DNA from: Sulfurospirillum diekertiae
GTDB lineage: Bacteria; Campylobacterota; Campylobacteria; Campylobacterales; Sulfurospirillaceae
DNA: 64,000 nucleotides
Reading direction: 5' to 3'
Assembly (NCBI RefSeq): GCF_002162315.1
Contig: NZ_CP021416.1
Span: forward strand, 992,001-1,056,000
Of the stretch, positions 30,194 through 50,614 are shown piece by piece (positions within the stretch are counted from its first letter, which is position 1; each line of letters begins with the position of its first letter). A program made the translations under genes and the position numbers. The notes beneath the pieces are model-generated. The model was not told the origin of the DNA. It saw only the letters and a list, made by a program, of their open reading frames with translations, and made no database searches.

Positions 30194-30805
30194 TTATTTG
30201 TGCATCTGTATCCAAATGCCATCATCGGCGCGATGAATCACATAATCCACAATTCCCACACTTTTTAAAAGGGCATCATAGTCACGCTTCATGCCATCTC
30301 CATGCATTTTATTCATCGCTTCTCGATCGATTTCTTGACCTCTTTGGCGCATATTTTCTTCAATCTGCTCTTTGATTTCAGGCGTGCCTTTGCCTCCGCC
30401 CACAAACGTGGTCCCACCTTTTTTAAGTACGCGGTAAATCTCTTTGAAAGCTAATGCAGGCTCTTCCCAAAAAGGAAGCGAACCTCTGGATATCATTAAA
30501 TCCATTGTCTCATTTTCCAGAGGAATGGCATGCACATCCCCCAAAAGAATAGCGCCTCGCTCTTCTAAGTCATCTTCAATGAGGTGTAAAGCAGCTTTAT
30601 CCAGTGCCTCTTGGGAGAGATCAAAAAACGTTACATGTAAACGGGTTATTTTTGCAAGTTCAAGCCCCAAATACCCTCCACACGAGCCAATATCCAGACA
30701 CTTTCCCTCCGTGACATTTGTATATGTTTTTATCTTGTTGGCATAGTATTCATACAAAGGGCGTTTTACTGTTCGTGACTGTTCATCGTAGTGTTCAACA
30801 TCCAT
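30194..30805 (-). CDS. Class I SAM-dependent methyltransferase
   Basis: A 203-residue methyltransferase with motif I LDIGSCGGYLGLELA (SAM-binding glycine loop), an acidic residue after beta-2 (FFDLS), GDVHAIPLENETMDLMISRG (motifs II-III region) and a post-motif loop EIYRVLKKGG. The substrate is not evident. Its ribosome site AAGGA is fused to an exact TTACATGTAA palindrome (30815). It lies downstream of the TonB receptor gene but beyond a terminator, so joint function with the uptake genes is possible, not shown. Confidence 0.82.
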   Translation of the reverse strand: MDVEHYDEQSRTVKRPLYEYYANKIKTYTNVTEGKCLDIGSCGGYLGLELAKITRLHVTFFDLSQEALDKAALHLIEDDLEERGAILLGDVHAIPLENETMDLMISRGSLPFWEEPALAFKEIYRVLKKGGTTFVGGGKGTPEIKEQIEENMRQRGQEIDREAMNKMHGDGMKRDYDALLKSVGIVDYVIHRADDGIWIQMHK

Positions 30806-30822
30806 CGTTAATCCTTACATGT

Positions 30823-30850
30823 AAAAAAGCGCTCAGTTTTTTGAGCGCTT
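30823..30850 (-). terminator. Intrinsic terminator of the TonB receptor operon
   Basis: On the minus strand, AAGCGCTCA and TGAGCGCTT form a 9-bp stem (30827-30835 with 30842-30850) with a 6-nt loop, followed by a six-T run. It ends the receptor transcript and precedes the methyltransferase gene. Confidence 0.82.
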
Positions 30851-30857
30851 ACAATAG

Positions 30858-32945
30858 TTAATATTTGAGTGTTAGATCAAGACCAAAAACACGACCACGA
30901 TCATAGTAATACCCCGTTGTATAACGTGTTGCATAATGCTCATCGGTGAGGTTTCTGACATATAGCGTAACCGTTGTTGTGGTATTGCCTGCTTTAAAGT
31001 CCCGCATAATATTGGTATCAACGCGCGTAAAATCACCTAGATCAACATTATACGCTGTTCCCATTGCCGAGGTTGAGGTATGCCAGCCACTCTCTTTTTG
31101 GATGGAAAGGTTGGCTCGGTATTTGTCCCACTCTTGCGTAATCAACAAAGTGTACAAATCCTCTGGGTTGCTGTTCCCCACATTATCGGTTGTAACGCCA
31201 CTACTGGCGATAGCGTCATACTGCAAAAGATGTGTCCAGCTTGCTTTGTAGCTTGTACCTGTTGAAAACTGTCCTTTGAGAAGAAGCTCAAGGCCATTTC
31301 GTTTTGTATCAGATTCGGTATAGTAATAGTAGGTTTGACCATTTAGCACGTACGTATTGGTTGCGGAAGTATCTTGCGCTTTTTCATTGTCTGTTTTGAC
31401 GCTAAACCACGTTACCATCGGGTTAAAGGCTTTATCGTAATTGGCTTCCAGACTGGTCTCGAAACGTTCTTGTGTTTCAGCATGAAGAGTACCTGTTTTG
31501 GATTTAACATCAAAATCGCCCATCGTTCCTTCATCACCGTGATAATATCGTGTACTGATGTTATAAATTGGGGTCATTTGCCATTTTGCACCTAAGGCAT
31601 AAATCTTTGCAGGCGCCATATCGGTATCGTTATTGGTACTATTTTTAGTCGCACTGGTACTTGAGTAGTCGATATGTTTTTGATCTTGTCGATAACCGCC
31701 ATCAAGAATGACTTGCCCATCAAACAATTTTTGTTCAACCGTTCCTGCCCAACCTAAAACATTGACATCAAAGCGGTTATAACTAGCACTATTGTTGGCA
31801 CCATATCCTGAACTATCGGTAGATTGCACTCCCAACATAACGGTTGTGTCACCATAACGCATATTGTGGCGCAAACTAAAACCGTCTGTTTTTTCCCAAT
31901 AAGGTTTTGGATTTCCTATAGTTGTTGCGGGTGTTGTTCCCCCAAAGGATTCATTACTGTACTCGGTATGCTCGTAGCGTGTACCAAACATCGAAGCCAG
32001 TGTTGCGTGATTTTCACTCCATTGTAGGGTTGCATCACCACTGATAATCTGTGTCGTGATAGGATCATAATACCATTTTGAATTATCTAAAGTGCCTAAA
32101 ACTGTGACACCTCTTTGCATATCAAACGTTCCCGTATCTTTATAGGCTAAGAGTTTTGCGCTCAAATTTTTATAGGTAAATCCTGTATTGGCCATTTTAA
32201 CATCGGCGGTCTGTTTATCAAACCATGTATCATTGGTTCGTTGATTAAGTCCTGACCACATACCTCCGACAAAGGCGCTTGAATCATCGTTTGCAACACG
32301 CGACCCTACATAAAGATTTTCTTTATTGGTTCCAGGAATACCTTCTGTTTTTTCAAGTGTACCTGACAAAATCGCTTCCGTTTTTTCGGGTTGTTTCGTT
32401 TTGATAATGATATAACCCACATTCAATCCTGAACCCGATGTGGATGAGCCGATGTTAATCGATGGTCCTAAGGTCAAGGATGAAGAACCTCTCACTATTT
32501 GAATCTCTTCAATCGCATTGAGTGGAAGCTTTTGGAGAATTTTGTTGGCGGTAGACGGTAAAATAGCACCATCAATAATGTAGGTGAGCGATCCGCCACC
32601 CCTGACATTGACAAAATAGGGACTTTTCCGACCTTGATACGTGACATCAACACCCGTAGCATGACCAAGAAGATCGAACATATCTTTAGGCGCAAGGTCT
32701 TTAATATCTTCTTGTGTAAAGATTTCAACGCCCGCTTGAGAGCTGCTTTCTACTTTGTGAGGATTGAGTATGCTGGTAGGATTCAAATCCTCACGTACAA
32801 CATGCGATGATCCATTGTTGTTATTGCCCGTAGCGCTAATGGGATCAAGTTCATAAACGGTATCAGCTCCAATGAGCGATAATGGAAAGACGAGAGATGC
32901 TGTGACGAGGCTGAGAGTGCCAAGCCATTTCTGGGACGAAGACAT
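30858..32945 (-). CDS. TonB-dependent outer-membrane receptor
   Basis: A 695-residue receptor: signal peptide (to about residue 28), an N-terminal plug with IFTQEDIKDLAPKDMFDLLG, VDVTYQGR, VNVRGGGSLTYIIDG and IEEIQIVRGSSS, and a beta barrel ending in the typical RNLTDEHYATRY ... LDLTLKY. ATG 32945 has AAAGGAG. It is cotranscribed with a metal-chelate-type binding protein (1-nt gap) behind a ModE-like operator, so molybdate or tungstate chelates are a possible cargo; iron siderophore or cobalamin remain alternatives. Confidence 0.88.
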   Translation of the reverse strand: MSSSQKWLGTLSLVTASLVFPLSLIGADTVYELDPISATGNNNNGSSHVVREDLNPTSILNPHKVESSSQAGVEIFTQEDIKDLAPKDMFDLLGHATGVDVTYQGRKSPYFVNVRGGGSLTYIIDGAILPSTANKILQKLPLNAIEEIQIVRGSSSLTLGPSINIGSSTSGSGLNVGYIIIKTKQPEKTEAILSGTLEKTEGIPGTNKENLYVGSRVANDDSSAFVGGMWSGLNQRTNDTWFDKQTADVKMANTGFTYKNLSAKLLAYKDTGTFDMQRGVTVLGTLDNSKWYYDPITTQIISGDATLQWSENHATLASMFGTRYEHTEYSNESFGGTTPATTIGNPKPYWEKTDGFSLRHNMRYGDTTVMLGVQSTDSSGYGANNSASYNRFDVNVLGWAGTVEQKLFDGQVILDGGYRQDQKHIDYSSTSATKNSTNNDTDMAPAKIYALGAKWQMTPIYNISTRYYHGDEGTMGDFDVKSKTGTLHAETQERFETSLEANYDKAFNPMVTWFSVKTDNEKAQDTSATNTYVLNGQTYYYYTESDTKRNGLELLLKGQFSTGTSYKASWTHLLQYDAIASSGVTTDNVGNSNPEDLYTLLITQEWDKYRANLSIQKESGWHTSTSAMGTAYNVDLGDFTRVDTNIMRDFKAGNTTTTVTLYVRNLTDEHYATRYTTGYYYDRGRVFGLDLTLKY

Positions 32946-32946
32946 A

Positions 32947-33990
32947 TTACTCCTTTGTAATGAAAGATTGTGGTGCTAAGATTACATGTAAAGCTTTTTC
33001 ATCCAATGTTACACCCATAAAAAGAGCGTAAAAATTTTTAGTTTCTTCACGGATGTCGATGGGATACTCAGCGGGATACAAAAGATTTGCTAACCATTGA
33101 AGCCCTAAAAAGCGCATAAAAGAGGGTGGTCTGTCAAACCAGTTAAACGGTATTGTAGGAATAAGATAGATGCGATTTTCTTGAACCGCTTTGATGTTTT
33201 TCCACATGGGGTGTGATTTAACAGTATTTAAAAAATTCTCTTCTTGGGTAATGATCACATCAGGGTTGTAAAGAATCACTTGCTCCATCGTAAGTTTTTC
33301 AAACCCTTTGTGATTGGATGTATGACAGCGATGGACATTGACATCGCCTAATAGTTTTAAAATCTCAACGTGAATGGAGTCATCGCATTCGGTACTGAGT
33401 CCATCAGTGCCTTCTGCGTAATAGACTTTGGGACGCTTCTCTTGGGGGATATCACTGACAACCTTTTTGACATCCTCTAAAATACTTTGAGTACGTTTTG
33501 AAAGCATATCTCCGCGTTTTTCTTGATGTAAAAGACGTCCTAAAAATTGAAAAACTTTGGGATAATCTTCCATGGATTCAGCCACCGCATAAACATAGGG
33601 TATATTAAACTGCTCTAGTTTTTGGTTGATATTACCGATGGGGCTCAGTGACGAAGTAGACCACATAAGCAGTAGATCGGGCTTTTGCACAAAGAGTGTT
33701 TCGATGTTGGAGGTTTGCGCCCCTCCACTCATAGAACCTACAACGGGTAAGTCTCTGCTACTGGGGGCAAGAAAAGGCTTGTTCTTCTCTTGTACCGCAA
33801 TGACCCATCCCGCCATAATCGAAGGATCCATCGCATATAAAATATAACTCCCATAAGGAGAGGTGGCGTAGATTTTATGGATGGATTCAGGCAGTGTGAC
33901 TTCTCTTCCCGCCATATCGGTGATTGTAGTGGCATGTAGAGACATTGAAAAAATAGCTCCTAAAATAAGTTTACATGTAAGATGTTTCAT
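32947..33990 (-). CDS. Periplasmic binding protein of the FecB/BtuF/MolA (class III) type
   Basis: A 347-residue binding protein: signal peptide (MKHLTCKLILGAIFSMSLHA), then TDMAGREVTLPESIHKIYA, the usual opening of class III binding proteins for chelates and cobalamin, and oxyanions in MolA. ATG 33990 follows GGGAG; an upstream TTG is rejected. No ABC permease or ATPase is encoded nearby. The ModE-like box directly upstream suggests a molybdate/tungstate role by analogy with MolA; this is inference. Confidence 0.85.
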   Translation of the reverse strand: MKHLTCKLILGAIFSMSLHATTITDMAGREVTLPESIHKIYATSPYGSYILYAMDPSIMAGWVIAVQEKNKPFLAPSSRDLPVVGSMSGGAQTSNIETLFVQKPDLLLMWSTSSLSPIGNINQKLEQFNIPYVYAVAESMEDYPKVFQFLGRLLHQEKRGDMLSKRTQSILEDVKKVVSDIPQEKRPKVYYAEGTDGLSTECDDSIHVEILKLLGDVNVHRCHTSNHKGFEKLTMEQVILYNPDVIITQEENFLNTVKSHPMWKNIKAVQENRIYLIPTIPFNWFDRPPSFMRFLGLQWLANLLYPAEYPIDIREETKNFYALFMGVTLDEKALHVILAPQSFITKE

Positions 33991-34004
33991 GGCGTCTCCC
34001 TTCA

Positions 34005-34032
34005 AACGTTATATTATAATATATATAACGAT
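34005..34032. promoter_or_regulatory. ModE-like operator upstream of the TonB/binding-protein operon
   Basis: AACGTTATATT (34005-34015), six bases, TATATAACGAT (34022-34032). The right half matches the ModE consensus half-site as I remember it (TATATAACGAT) at all 11 positions, the left half matches its complement at most positions, and the N6 gap is as expected. The core CGTTATAT/ATATAACG is a perfect dyad. It sits 15 bp upstream of the binding-protein start. No modE gene is in the window. Confidence 0.55.
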
Positions 34033-34315
34033 AACTGTGCAAATTTTATTCCTTCATTGACTCATAAATATCTTGTTAGTCGTTATAAAAAGTGAAAGGA
34101 AATCCATTTTTTGGAAGATAAAACTAAAAAAAAAGAGATATAGCTCAATTTCATATCATATGGTTAGTTGTTATTTGTGAAGCAAAGAAATAGGGATGTA
34201 TTTTTAAAAATTTATTATTAAATACGTCGATAATAAAAGAATTTGATATGCATAAAACTGTCAGCTTACCTAATCCAATATGGAAGTATTTGATAAACAA
34301 TTTAGTTTTATATTG

Positions 34316-35248: not shown

Positions 35249-37486
35249 ATGAAAAAGTTTCAGACGACATGTCCATATTGTGGCACTGGCTGTAATATAG
35301 ATTTATTAGTTGAAAATAATAAAATCGTCAAGGCAGAGCCCACAAAACATCATCATGTGAATGATGGTGAATTGTGCTTGAAAGGACTTTATGGTTGGGA
35401 ATATGTTCATTCTCCAAGGAGACTTACCAAACCATTGATACGAAAAAAAGACGGTGTTTTTTCAAAACAGGGTGAATTGGTTGAGGTAAGCTTTGAAGAG
35501 GCATACGATTTTGTGGCTTCTCGCATGAAAGCTTCTGTTGAAGAATATGGCCCCAATAGCATCATGGGATTTTCTTCTGCTAGATGCACCAATGAAGACA
35601 ATTATGCTTTTCAAAAACTCTTTAGAGTACAAGGAACCAATAATATAGATCACTGCGCTCGTCTTTGACATGGCCCTACAGTAGTCGGTTTGACTAAAAC
35701 ATTAGGTAATGGCACCATGACAAACGATCTTACAGAGTTTGCTACCGATACAGACGTTCTTTTTTTAATTGGAACCAATACAAGCGAATGCCACCCAATT
35801 ATCGCCATGCAAATGTTGCGAGGATTAGAGCGTGGAGCTAAAATGATTGTCATCGATCCCAAAGAGACGGATATGGCCAAAAAAGCGGACATATTTCTTC
35901 AAATCCCTGTGGGTTATAACATTCCACTTCTCAATGCAATGATTCATCATATTATTGAAAATAATCTGTTTGATAAAGAATTTGTTGAAAACTATGCAGT
36001 TGGTTTTGATTATGTGAAATATGCAGTCAAAGATTTTACACCTGAACGTGTTGAACAAGAGACAGGTATCGCGGCAAGTCTTGTGATAGAGGCAGCTGAA
36101 ATGTATGCTCGTGCAGGTGCAGCAGCTATTTGTTATACCATGGGTATGACACAATTTATTGATGGAACGTCCAATATATTCTCTCTCTCCAATCTTGCCA
36201 TTCTCACAGGAAATCTAGGTAAAAAAGGTGCAGGTGTTAACCCCCTTCGTGGACAAAACAATGTACAAGGTGCCTGCGATATGGGTGCTCTTCCAAACTG
36301 GGTGCCTAATGGCATGGTGACCAGTGAAGCCGTACGTTTACATGTAAAAGAAATTTGGGGATACGACATCAGTCCCAATATTGGTTATAAACTTACCGAA
36401 GTACCGCACAAAATAGAAGAGGGTGACATTAAATTCCTTTATGTCTTTGGCGAAAATCCTGTCATGAGTGATCCTTGGACAGAGCATTTCGTTGAGGCGG
36501 TTGCGCATCTTGAAACAATGGTAGTCCAAGATATATTCCTCACTGAAACTGCACAAAAAGCAGATGTTGTCTTGCCTGCTGCTTCTTGGGGTGAAAAAGA
36601 GGGAACATTCATTAATACTTCTCGTCGCATTCAAATGGTGGCAAAAGCCATTGAACCTAGTGAGGGCATTGAGCCAGATTGGAAAGTCATTTGTCATATT
36701 GCACAAAGAATTGGTTTAGAAGGTTTTGATTTTTATAAACCAGAAGAGCTATGGGAAGAGGTTCAAGCACTGAACCCACACTTCTTTGGCGGTGCGACGT
36801 ATCCTCGCCTTAAAAAAGAGAATGGTATTAGTTGGCCATGTCCGCATGAGACACATCCAGGGACACCTGTTTTGTATGAAGATAAAAAATCAATGTTACC
36901 AGATGGCAAATTTAGATTAACACCTGTTATCTATACTGATGATAAAACCAAACGGGTAGAACTTGAAAATGAACTTATTGCAAAACTCAATATTCCAAGT
37001 GACTATCCAGTCGGTTCTGGTGCTCTCAGTGAAAAAGTGAATGCGCTTTATCCGTGCCTCTTTACGACCGGACGTAAAGTATACCACTATCATACGGGTA
37101 CGATGACGAGGGAATGTAAACCATTGGAAATGGGTGCTGATTTTATGGGTGCTGCGATAGAAGTGAGTTTAGATATTGCAGAGGCGAGAGATTTACAAGA
37201 AGATTGTTATGCCCTTGTTGAAAATAAACGTGGGAAAATTGCTGCGAAAGTGAAAATAAATCGAGACCTTCGTCATGGCACGATTTTTACGACATTTCAT
37301 TATGCAGAAGCGGATGGAAATGAACTCGCAAATGCTGAAGATAAAGACCCCCTCTCTGGTATGAATCCTCTCAAAATGACGATAGCGGCAATTCGAAAAA
37401 TTTCTGAAGAAGAGTATTTAATGGTTCGTAATCAGACAGATATGCACATGCACCCGTCCGAGCAGTATCGTACGGTAAGGAGATAA
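35249..37486 (+). CDS. fdhF: Selenocysteine formate dehydrogenase catalytic subunit (FdhF type), copy 1
   Basis: A 745-residue molybdopterin enzyme interrupted by an in-frame TGA at 35666-35668, read as selenocysteine 140 in the conserved context DHCARL-U-HGPTVVGL. N-terminal 4Fe-4S motif CPYCGTGC with a downstream CLKG cysteine, MGD-binding and dinucleotide domains follow, ending with the C-terminal cap. It matches E. coli FDH-H in length and Sec position. Formate is oxidised to CO2 and electrons pass to the HyfA ferredoxin encoded 4 nt downstream. A SECIS-like hairpin lies 13 nt after the TGA. Confidence 0.92.
35666..35696 (+). promoter_or_regulatory. Bacterial SECIS element for FDH 1
   Basis: The UGA is followed after 13 nt by a hairpin TAGTC-GGTTT-GACTA (35682-35696) with a GG-starting loop, similar in place and loop to the fdhF SECIS. 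The second FDH has TAGCC-GGTTT-GGCTA at the same distance, a compensatory pair change that preserves the stem. Confidence 0.8.
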
Positions 37487-48301: not shown

Positions 48302-48370
48302 AAGAGGAGGCGTGGATGTAATGAAACCTGAACTAATAAGTCAAAAAATTAAATGAATGAAAGGGAAAAA

Positions 48371-50614
48371 ATGAGTACATCACGTGTTATATGTCCTTAT
48401 TGTGGAACTGGGTGTAATGTTGATTTACATGTAGAAAACAATAAAATTATGAGTGCAAATGGTACCAAAGACCATCCTGTTAATGACTCACAATTGTGTC
48501 TTAAAGGACTTTATGGTTGGGATTATGTCGGCGCGAACGATCGGTTGAAAAACCCATTGATTCGTAAAAAAGACGGTAAATTTTCCAGAGACGGAGAATT
48601 TGTCGAAGCTTCATGGGATGAGGCACTTGATTTGGTTGTATCCAAATTTAAAGAATCCATTGAAAAATATGGCAAACGCTCCATTGCAGGTAACTTTTCA
48701 GCGCGCTGTACATTAGAAGAAAATTATGTCTCACAAAAATTGATGAGAGTCGCCATAGGAAATAATAATGTAGACCACTGTGCTCGCGTTTGACATGCAC
48801 CTACAGTAGCCGGTTTGGCTAAAACAATAGGTAACGGTGCAGCAACCAACAGCTTTACAGAAATTGGTTTATACAGTAATTGTATCTTAATGATAGGCTC
48901 AAATCCAGAGAATGGTCATCCGATTGCAGCAATGCATATTCAAAGAGCATTAGACCGAGGCGCTAAACTGATTGTCATTGATCCGATATTAACCGAAATG
49001 GCACAAAAAGCAGATGTGCATATTCAATTGCCACCTGAGCATAACATTCCGATTATCAATGCGATACTTCATTACATCATTGCCAATGATCTATGTGATA
49101 ATGATTTTATTGCGAAGTATACAACGGGATTTGATTATGTTAAAGAGACCGTTCAAGGGTATAGTCCTGAGTCAGTCTCAAAAATGACAGGTGTGCCTCA
49201 AGCGTTAATTGAAAAAGCGGCGCATCTTTATGCGACTATCAAACCAGCAGCACTGACGCATGGTATGGGTGTAACCCATTTTAATCATGGTGTGGGTAAT
49301 GTGTATGATGTATCGAATTTGTTTTTATGTACGGGAAATATTGGAGAACTGGGTTCTGGGGATTATCCACTTCGTGGGCAACAAAATGTACAAGGTGCAT
49401 GCGATATGGCCGTACTTCCTAACATTTTTCCGAACCTAAAACCTGTGACAGACCCAGAAGCACGTGCATTTTTTGAAAAAATGTGGGAGTGTAAACTCGA
49501 TGATAAAATTGGTGTGCATAAAACACAAGTGCCTGATGCTATTATGAGTGGTGAAGTGAAAGTGTTCTATACCATTGGCGAAAATCCAGTAATTTCAGAA
49601 CCTAATACGAATCACTTCTTAAAAGGGTTAGCACATCTTGATTTTTACGTGGTGCAAGATATCTTTTTAACCGAAACCGCTCTTAAAGCAGATGTTGTGC
49701 TTCCCGCGGTGTGTGGTCCAGAAAAAGATGGCTGTTATGCCAATGCAGAACGTCGTGTTCAACGTAACCATAAAGCGGTTGATGCGGTGGGTAATGTCAA
49801 ACAAGATTGGCAAATTATTTGTGAAATCGCCAAACGTTTAGGTGCGAAAGGCTTTGATTATAAAAATCCTGAAGAGATTTGGGAAGAGGTAAGGCAAGCC
49901 GATCCTGCACGCTATGGCGGTATGAGTTACGATCGTTTGGAGAAAGAGCATGGGTTGCATTGGCCGTGTCCAACGTTGGTTCATCCCGGTACGCCTTCGA
50001 TGTATATGGATAAAAAATTCTATACACCCGATCAAAAGGCGCGTTTTGCACCGGTTGTCTTTGTGGACGATAAAAGTAAAATTCCAGCTGCGCAAAAAGC
50101 ATTGGCTGAAAAGCTTAACCTTCCTGAGGGATATCCACATATGGCAGGTTCTGTGGATGAAAAGACCGATAGCACCTACCCAATAGAGCTTTTAACGACA
50201 CGAAAAGTGTATCAATATACGGTTGGTACGATGACACGAAAGTCTCCTGCTCTTGAGTGTGGAGCAGATCTTCATGGTCCAGCAGCAGAAATCAATCCCG
50301 CAACTGCGGCAGAGTATGATGTGGAAGAAGGCGATTTTGTGGCGATAGAAAGCAGGTATGGCTCGATTGCCATTAAGGTCGAAGTCACTGAAGTCGTTCC
50401 TAAAAATGTGATGCAAATGGCATTCCACTATTGGGAGGGACACTCTAATGAGCTCACCAGTAATGGTGTTGATCCTATCTCTTTAACGCCAACCTATAAA
50501 GCGGCAGTGAAGATGAAAAAGATCACGTCAGAGGAGTATTTTGCGACGTTAATGGAAAAAAGAGAGAAGTTTTATTCTCAAAAAATTATCTATTTCGATG
50601 CACATCATCATTAA
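48371..50614 (+). CDS. fdhF: Selenocysteine formate dehydrogenase catalytic subunit (FdhF type), copy 2
   Basis: A 747-residue paralogue of copy 1 with TGA 48791-48793 read as selenocysteine 141 in DHCARV-U-HAPTVAGL. CPYCGTGC 4Fe-4S motif, QLCLKG, and GQQNVQGACDM and GENPVISEP stretches are conserved. ATG 48371 with AAAGGG is preferred over 48353. No ferredoxin partner follows, so it either shares HyfA or works with a partner elsewhere. It has its own upstream region after the focA terminator, suggesting separate regulation. Confidence 0.92.
48791..48821 (+). promoter_or_regulatory. Bacterial SECIS element for FDH 2
   Basis: UGA 48791-48793, a 13-nt spacer and a hairpin TAGCC-GGTTT-GGCTA (48807-48821). 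The spacing and loop equal those of FDH 1 while one stem pair is changed on both sides, so the structure rather than the codons is conserved. Confidence 0.8.

Follow-up and report, generated by a model that had tools for sequence, protein, structure and literature searches.

In the conventional view, molybdate and tungstate pass porins by diffusion and are taken up by ModABC, TupABC or WtpABC. The catecholate molybdophores of Azotobacter provide a different model, in which a chelator carries molybdenum through a TonB receptor. The MolABC system of Haemophilus influenzae (HI1470-HI1472) combines a class III binding protein with a BtuCD-type importer, and is also linked to modA and modD (PMC3928620). 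The operator of the Escherichia coli regulator ModE follows the consensus ATCGnTATATA-N6-TATATAnCGAT (PMC545781). Here we analyze an operon of Sulfurospirillum diekertiae located in a window of 64,000 nucleotides (bases 992001-1056000 of the single-contig 2.88 Mb genome). We consider it likely that this operon constitutes the outer-membrane and periplasmic half of a ModE-repressed, TonB-dependent system for molybdenum or tungsten scavenging, with an inner-membrane step that, as in MolABC, would pair a class III binding protein with a BtuCD-type importer. The features of the locus, in window positions, are as follows.

34005..34032, plus strand: ModE-type box, a 28-bp imperfect palindrome, AACGTTATATT-ATAATA-TATATAACGAT, from pattern scan and weight matrix
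34007-34030: 24-bp core of the box, CGTTATATTATAATATATATAACG
34013..34041, minus strand: predicted sigma-70 promoter, -35 TGCACA and -10 TATAAT, from a consensus scan
32947..33990, minus strand: SBPw, class III (Peripla_BP_2) substrate-binding protein of 347 aa with a signal peptide (PF01497, 8.5e-15)
30858..32945, minus strand: TBDRw, TonB-dependent outer-membrane receptor of 695 aa (Plug PF07715, 9.7e-12)
30827-30850: terminator-like hairpin between TBDRw and MTw
30194..30805, minus strand: MTw, class I SAM methyltransferase, third gene of the module

The genes are arranged on the minus strand in the order SBPw, TBDRw, a 52-bp gap and MTw, with TBDRw starting 1 nt past the stop of SBPw. A preliminary description of this DNA had drawn the locus from 30858 to 34032 as a receptor and a binding protein; both genes are there (with Plug and Peripla_BP_2 domains, respectively), but that extent omits the module member MTw. 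The likely start of SBPw is ATG 33990, which yields a signal peptide and has a ribosome-binding site, and a TTG at 34005 is probably not used. TBDRw is full length, carries the Plug domain and ends in LDLTLKY with a terminal aromatic Y; the barrel model PF00593 gave no match, and a sequence search returned no solved TonB receptor close to it. Full-length orthologues of TBDRw occur in Campylobacterota and Desulfobacterota. The nearest solved structure to MTw is a putative methyltransferase (3dlc), and homologues of MTw were found in many distant loci.

The same description had proposed a ModE-like box with a perfect right half at 34005-34032, a proposal borne out by consensus comparison, genome scan and weight matrix. 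Relative to the E. coli consensus, the right half has no mismatch and the left half has two, at the 2nd and 11th bases. In the 2.88 Mb genome the box was the sole occurrence of CGTTATAT-N8-ATATAACG without mismatches. The plain ModE pattern with up to 3 mismatches was uninformative genome-wide (24 sites versus 23 for a control), and since it is no commoner than the control, only strong sites count. A weight matrix trained on 45 boxes from other promoters of the related cluster, with the 34005-34032 site left out, gave this box a score of 30.1, compared to 8.7 for the second best site in the window and 19.4 for the top of 200 shuffled windows; the training sites were picked by likeness to the consensus, which introduces a mild circularity. 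Genome scan and matrix together rule out a chance match, and we conclude that 34005-34032 is a real ModE-type box and a putative operator. The ~75 bp directly upstream of the SBPw start codon, box included, are nearly identical in S. diekertiae JPD-1, the nearest named relative in the scan (SBPw itself is 95% identical), and the box is unchanged; farther upstream, indels and substitutions separate the two.

The 24-bp core ends 16 nt upstream of ATG 33990. The predicted promoter matches the consensus at 10 of 12 positions, which puts it joint first in the region scanned, and its -10 element, as placed by the consensus scan, falls within the box. ModE activates some operons in E. coli, and in S. 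diekertiae a box also precedes a formate-dehydrogenase-like operon, so that ModE could be imagined to activate the operon when molybdenum is plentiful, supplying something else that molybdoenzymes need. However, with the predicted -10 inside the box and 16 nt from the box end to the start codon, the layout is that of a repressor site, and the spacing from box to start is equally tight at the promoter of MTm, a methyltransferase gene of a sister cluster. On these grounds we regard activation as very unlikely and favor repression.

The preliminary description had named the absence of modE as decisive against its proposal. Three full-length modE genes were found, one adjoining modA-mop-modB-modC at 983 kb, one adjoining a second mod operon at 2145 kb, and one inside the sister cluster at 2549 kb. 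The call at 2145 kb is based on a pair of TOBE domains and the length of the open frame, and the other two also on domain scans; the sister-cluster ModE scores 99.5 bits against TIGR00637 (cut-off 98.5). The search for other boxes, which combined a pattern search with selected genome stretches, was likewise productive: strong sites were located upstream of a mop gene (1978007) and of the formate-dehydrogenase-like operon (2571585), and at several promoters of the sister cluster at 2.54 Mb. The two modABC operons (~983 kb and 2145 kb), each with its own modE, are without a strong box of the type seen at the TonB cluster, and the three ModE proteins may therefore differ in operators or metals. 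The genome holds six Peripla_BP_2 genes, and the two outside cluster and window have no listed box nearby. A further site, 2475441, lies directly upstream of another TonB receptor (genome 2473325-2475464) composed of a 530-aa frame followed by an overlapping ORF, which may be frameshifted. Another, 2164841, lies between genes for a two-partner-secretion/GLUG exoprotein and a LysE exporter (genome 2160893-2165631).

The sister cluster, in genome positions, is composed of the following features.

2540-2554 kb, strand one: ExbB, ExbD, TonB, globin, luciferase-like monooxygenase, SBPm1, FecCD permease, ATPase, TBDRm
2540-2554 kb, other strand: ModE, globin, SBPm2, radical SAM/binding-protein chimera, methyltransferase MTm
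2551675-2553456, plus strand: the radical SAM/binding-protein chimera

Box-like sites recur across the genus, in most relatives examined, at the ExbB/ModE, ModE-Glb2, MTm and TBDRm promoters. Neither an ABC permease nor an ATPase was found at the window locus, and because the genome holds only two strong FecCD genes, one in this cluster and one at 1541 kb, the window operon most likely shares the sister-cluster permease. The nearest solved match of this permease is MolB (HI1471, 8.7e-63), followed by FhuB (3.7e-45) and BtuC (1.6e-41). In S. cavolei UCH003, Sulfurospirillum UBA4058 and a Sulfurospirillaceae MAG, the SBPw-TBDRw-MTw trio lies within the main cluster, with MTw directly following TBDRw and with ExbB, ExbD or TonB, FecCD and ATPase genes adjoining it. 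The larger cluster in these relatives also contains more receptors and binding proteins, the radical SAM/binding-protein chimera and its own modE. The placement of the trio in these three relatives leads us to read the window operon as a displaced module of the sister cluster, or the reverse.

In Sulfuricurvum and Sulfurovum this cluster lies next to modD, mop, modB or modC; in Sulfuricurvum the linked genes are modD (281.8 bits, cut-off 178.85), mop, modB and modC. Outside the genus we collected 68 loci, chosen by two peptide motifs. Their intergenic regions hold 22 E. coli-type boxes with up to 2 mismatches, compared to 2 for a control pattern, and the loci include a TonB receptor in 54 cases, ModA or ModB in 12 and a ModE-like gene in 13.

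The window also contains two formate dehydrogenase alpha genes, as the preliminary description had stated, each with an in-frame TGA that is consistent with selenocysteine.

35249-37486: formate dehydrogenase alpha gene
48353-50614: formate dehydrogenase alpha gene

The first adjoins hydrogenase-4-type genes. The implication that the operon mainly serves the molybdoenzymes nearby found no special support, the module being placed elsewhere in other species. As a separate observation, a palindrome, TTTACATGTAAA, has 792 copies in the genome versus 0 for the reversed control, and TTACATGTAA occurs at 22 sites in the window versus 0.11 expected (e.g., 30631, 30815, 32982 and 33971), 16 of them inside genes. 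This palindrome is also present in other Sulfurospirillum stretches and resembles a highly iterated palindrome or uptake-type sequence.

SBPw is a class III binding protein with the BtuF/MolA fold, as indicated by domain and sequence matches and by an AF2 model (pLDDT 87.8). Its strongest sequence match is 4pag (3e-75), an ABC solute-binding protein of S. deleyianum whose structure title names no ligand or function; SBPm2 is the orthologue of 4pag (E 2e-193), and SBPw and SBPm2 are paralogues with 38% identity. Among functionally characterised proteins, the best sequence match of SBPw is the molybdate binder MolA (HI1472; 3psa, 1.7e-15), at ~23% identity. In the structure search the model gave VIA Z values of 35.0 for 4pag, 25.4 for MolA and 24.1 for the siderophore binder YiuA, so close that MolA and YiuA are not clearly separable as the nearest functional model.

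This proximity to YiuA bears on the possibility that the operon serves siderophore (iron) uptake and that ModE only co-regulates it, for example because catecholate-type carriers also bind molybdate. Peripla_BP_2 proteins, FecCD permeases and TonB receptors are classically components of siderophore systems, and TBDRm scores best against TonB-siderophore and hemin receptor models, all below cut-off. We nevertheless consider this reading unlikely given that the permease is nearest to MolB, that ModE boxes recur across the genus, that the Sulfuricurvum cluster is linked to modD, mop, modB and modC, and that a search of the window promoter with an E. coli-type Fur consensus gave at best 7 of 19 mismatches, the level of shuffled sequences. 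Uptake of cobalamin, another corrinoid or heme, in which methyltransferases and globins would handle the tetrapyrroles and ModE control would be indirect, would fit the globins of the sister cluster and its methyltransferase with a weak corrinoid-protein-associated match. Matches to BtuF, BtuC and IsdE models are sub-threshold and far below curated cut-offs, there was no equivalog-level BtuF, BtuC or BtuB match above cut-off, MolB and MolA are closer, and an Rfam scan of the window and the sister cluster turned up no riboswitch, for B12 or otherwise; we judge this alternative very improbable. Fur or B12/Moco riboswitch control was set aside, nothing having been found in the box and riboswitch searches.

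The proposed control by molybdenum or tungsten status is supported by the three modE genes, the recurring boxes, the MolB-like permease, the modD-mop-modBC neighborhood in Sulfuricurvum and the lack of a Fur or B12 signal. The evidence for a molybdenum or tungsten cargo (permease, SBPw match, Sulfuricurvum neighborhood and distant loci) is concordant and largely independent of the window box. Counted against this reading are the lack of an ABC permease or ATPase in the window, a Z value for MolA hardly above that for YiuA, the siderophore-like scores of TBDRm, the mod operons without a strong box, and the finding of a box, mod gene or modE in only 30 of the 68 distant loci.

The box, the three modE genes and the membership of the operon in a larger ModE-boxed cluster, all read from sequence, suggest how scavenging could proceed. 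When molybdenum (or tungsten) is plentiful, oxyanion-bound ModE would occupy 34005-34032, a site that overlaps the -10 element and immediately precedes the ribosome-binding site, and repress transcription; when the metals are scarce, repression would lift. TBDRw would then move a molybdenum- or tungsten-bearing complex across the outer membrane, energised by ExbB-ExbD-TonB, SBPw would bind the complex on the periplasmic side, and transport of the cargo across the inner membrane would fall to the MolB-like permease and ATPase of the 2.54 Mb cluster. We infer both the metal (molybdenum or tungsten) and its form (chelate or oxyanion); the presence of a TonB receptor hints at a complex larger than molybdate or tungstate, both of which are small. 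MTw may make, modify or strip the carrier ligand.

The chimera of the sister cluster has its radical SAM domain at the N terminus, fused to the C-terminal half of a MolA-like class III binding protein. The eight copies aligned from the genus all show this fusion layout, at a mean column identity of 84%; so do several copies from Desulfobacterota and other phyla. In the predicted model (pLDDT 84, pTM 0.87), one part matches binding proteins and the other PFL-activase and NifB. We hypothesize that the chimera could process chelates. A more speculative possibility, which we consider less likely than not, is a dedicated molybdophore or tungstophore pathway. Its receptors would import a molybdenum or tungsten complex of an organic ligand; the cytoplasmic chimera would hold on to this complex and, acting with the methyltransferases and the luciferase-like monooxygenase, attack or assemble the ligand. 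Such a protein would be a metal-release or ligand-tailoring enzyme, its binding-protein lobe positioning the metal chelate before the radical SAM center.

Our literature search found no account of TonB-dependent molybdate uptake, and a mention in the ModE-box paper of Studholme and Pau or in regulon databases is possible. If the proposed system operates, many anaerobes would actively scavenge complexed molybdenum or tungsten, as others scavenge iron. The putatively ModE-controlled TonB system of Campylobacterota has relatives in many Desulfobacterota, several beside mod genes, and offers a concrete operon for the question of whether dedicated molybdenum or tungsten metallophores exist in anaerobes. 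It also suggests a class of ligand for 4pag, which is the nearest structure to SBPw and the orthologue of its paralogue SBPm2.

The system shares with the molybdophore systems of Azotobacter the idea of a molybdenum chelator passing through a TonB receptor, but differs from them in that no NRPS or catechol genes are among the sister-cluster genes identified. It resembles MolABC of H. influenzae in that HI1471 is the best solved match of the cluster permease and HI1472 the best functionally characterised match of SBPw. It differs from MolABC in its TonB receptors, its dedicated ExbB-ExbD-TonB, its additional binding proteins, its methyltransferases and its radical SAM chimera. The MolB-like permease and ATPase are encoded at 2.54 Mb instead of at the window locus. 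The ModE regulon of E. coli is matched in the sequence and layout of the operator and in a ModE with a helix-turn-helix and two TOBE domains; in S. diekertiae, however, the box fronts TonB-dependent uptake instead of a modABC operon.
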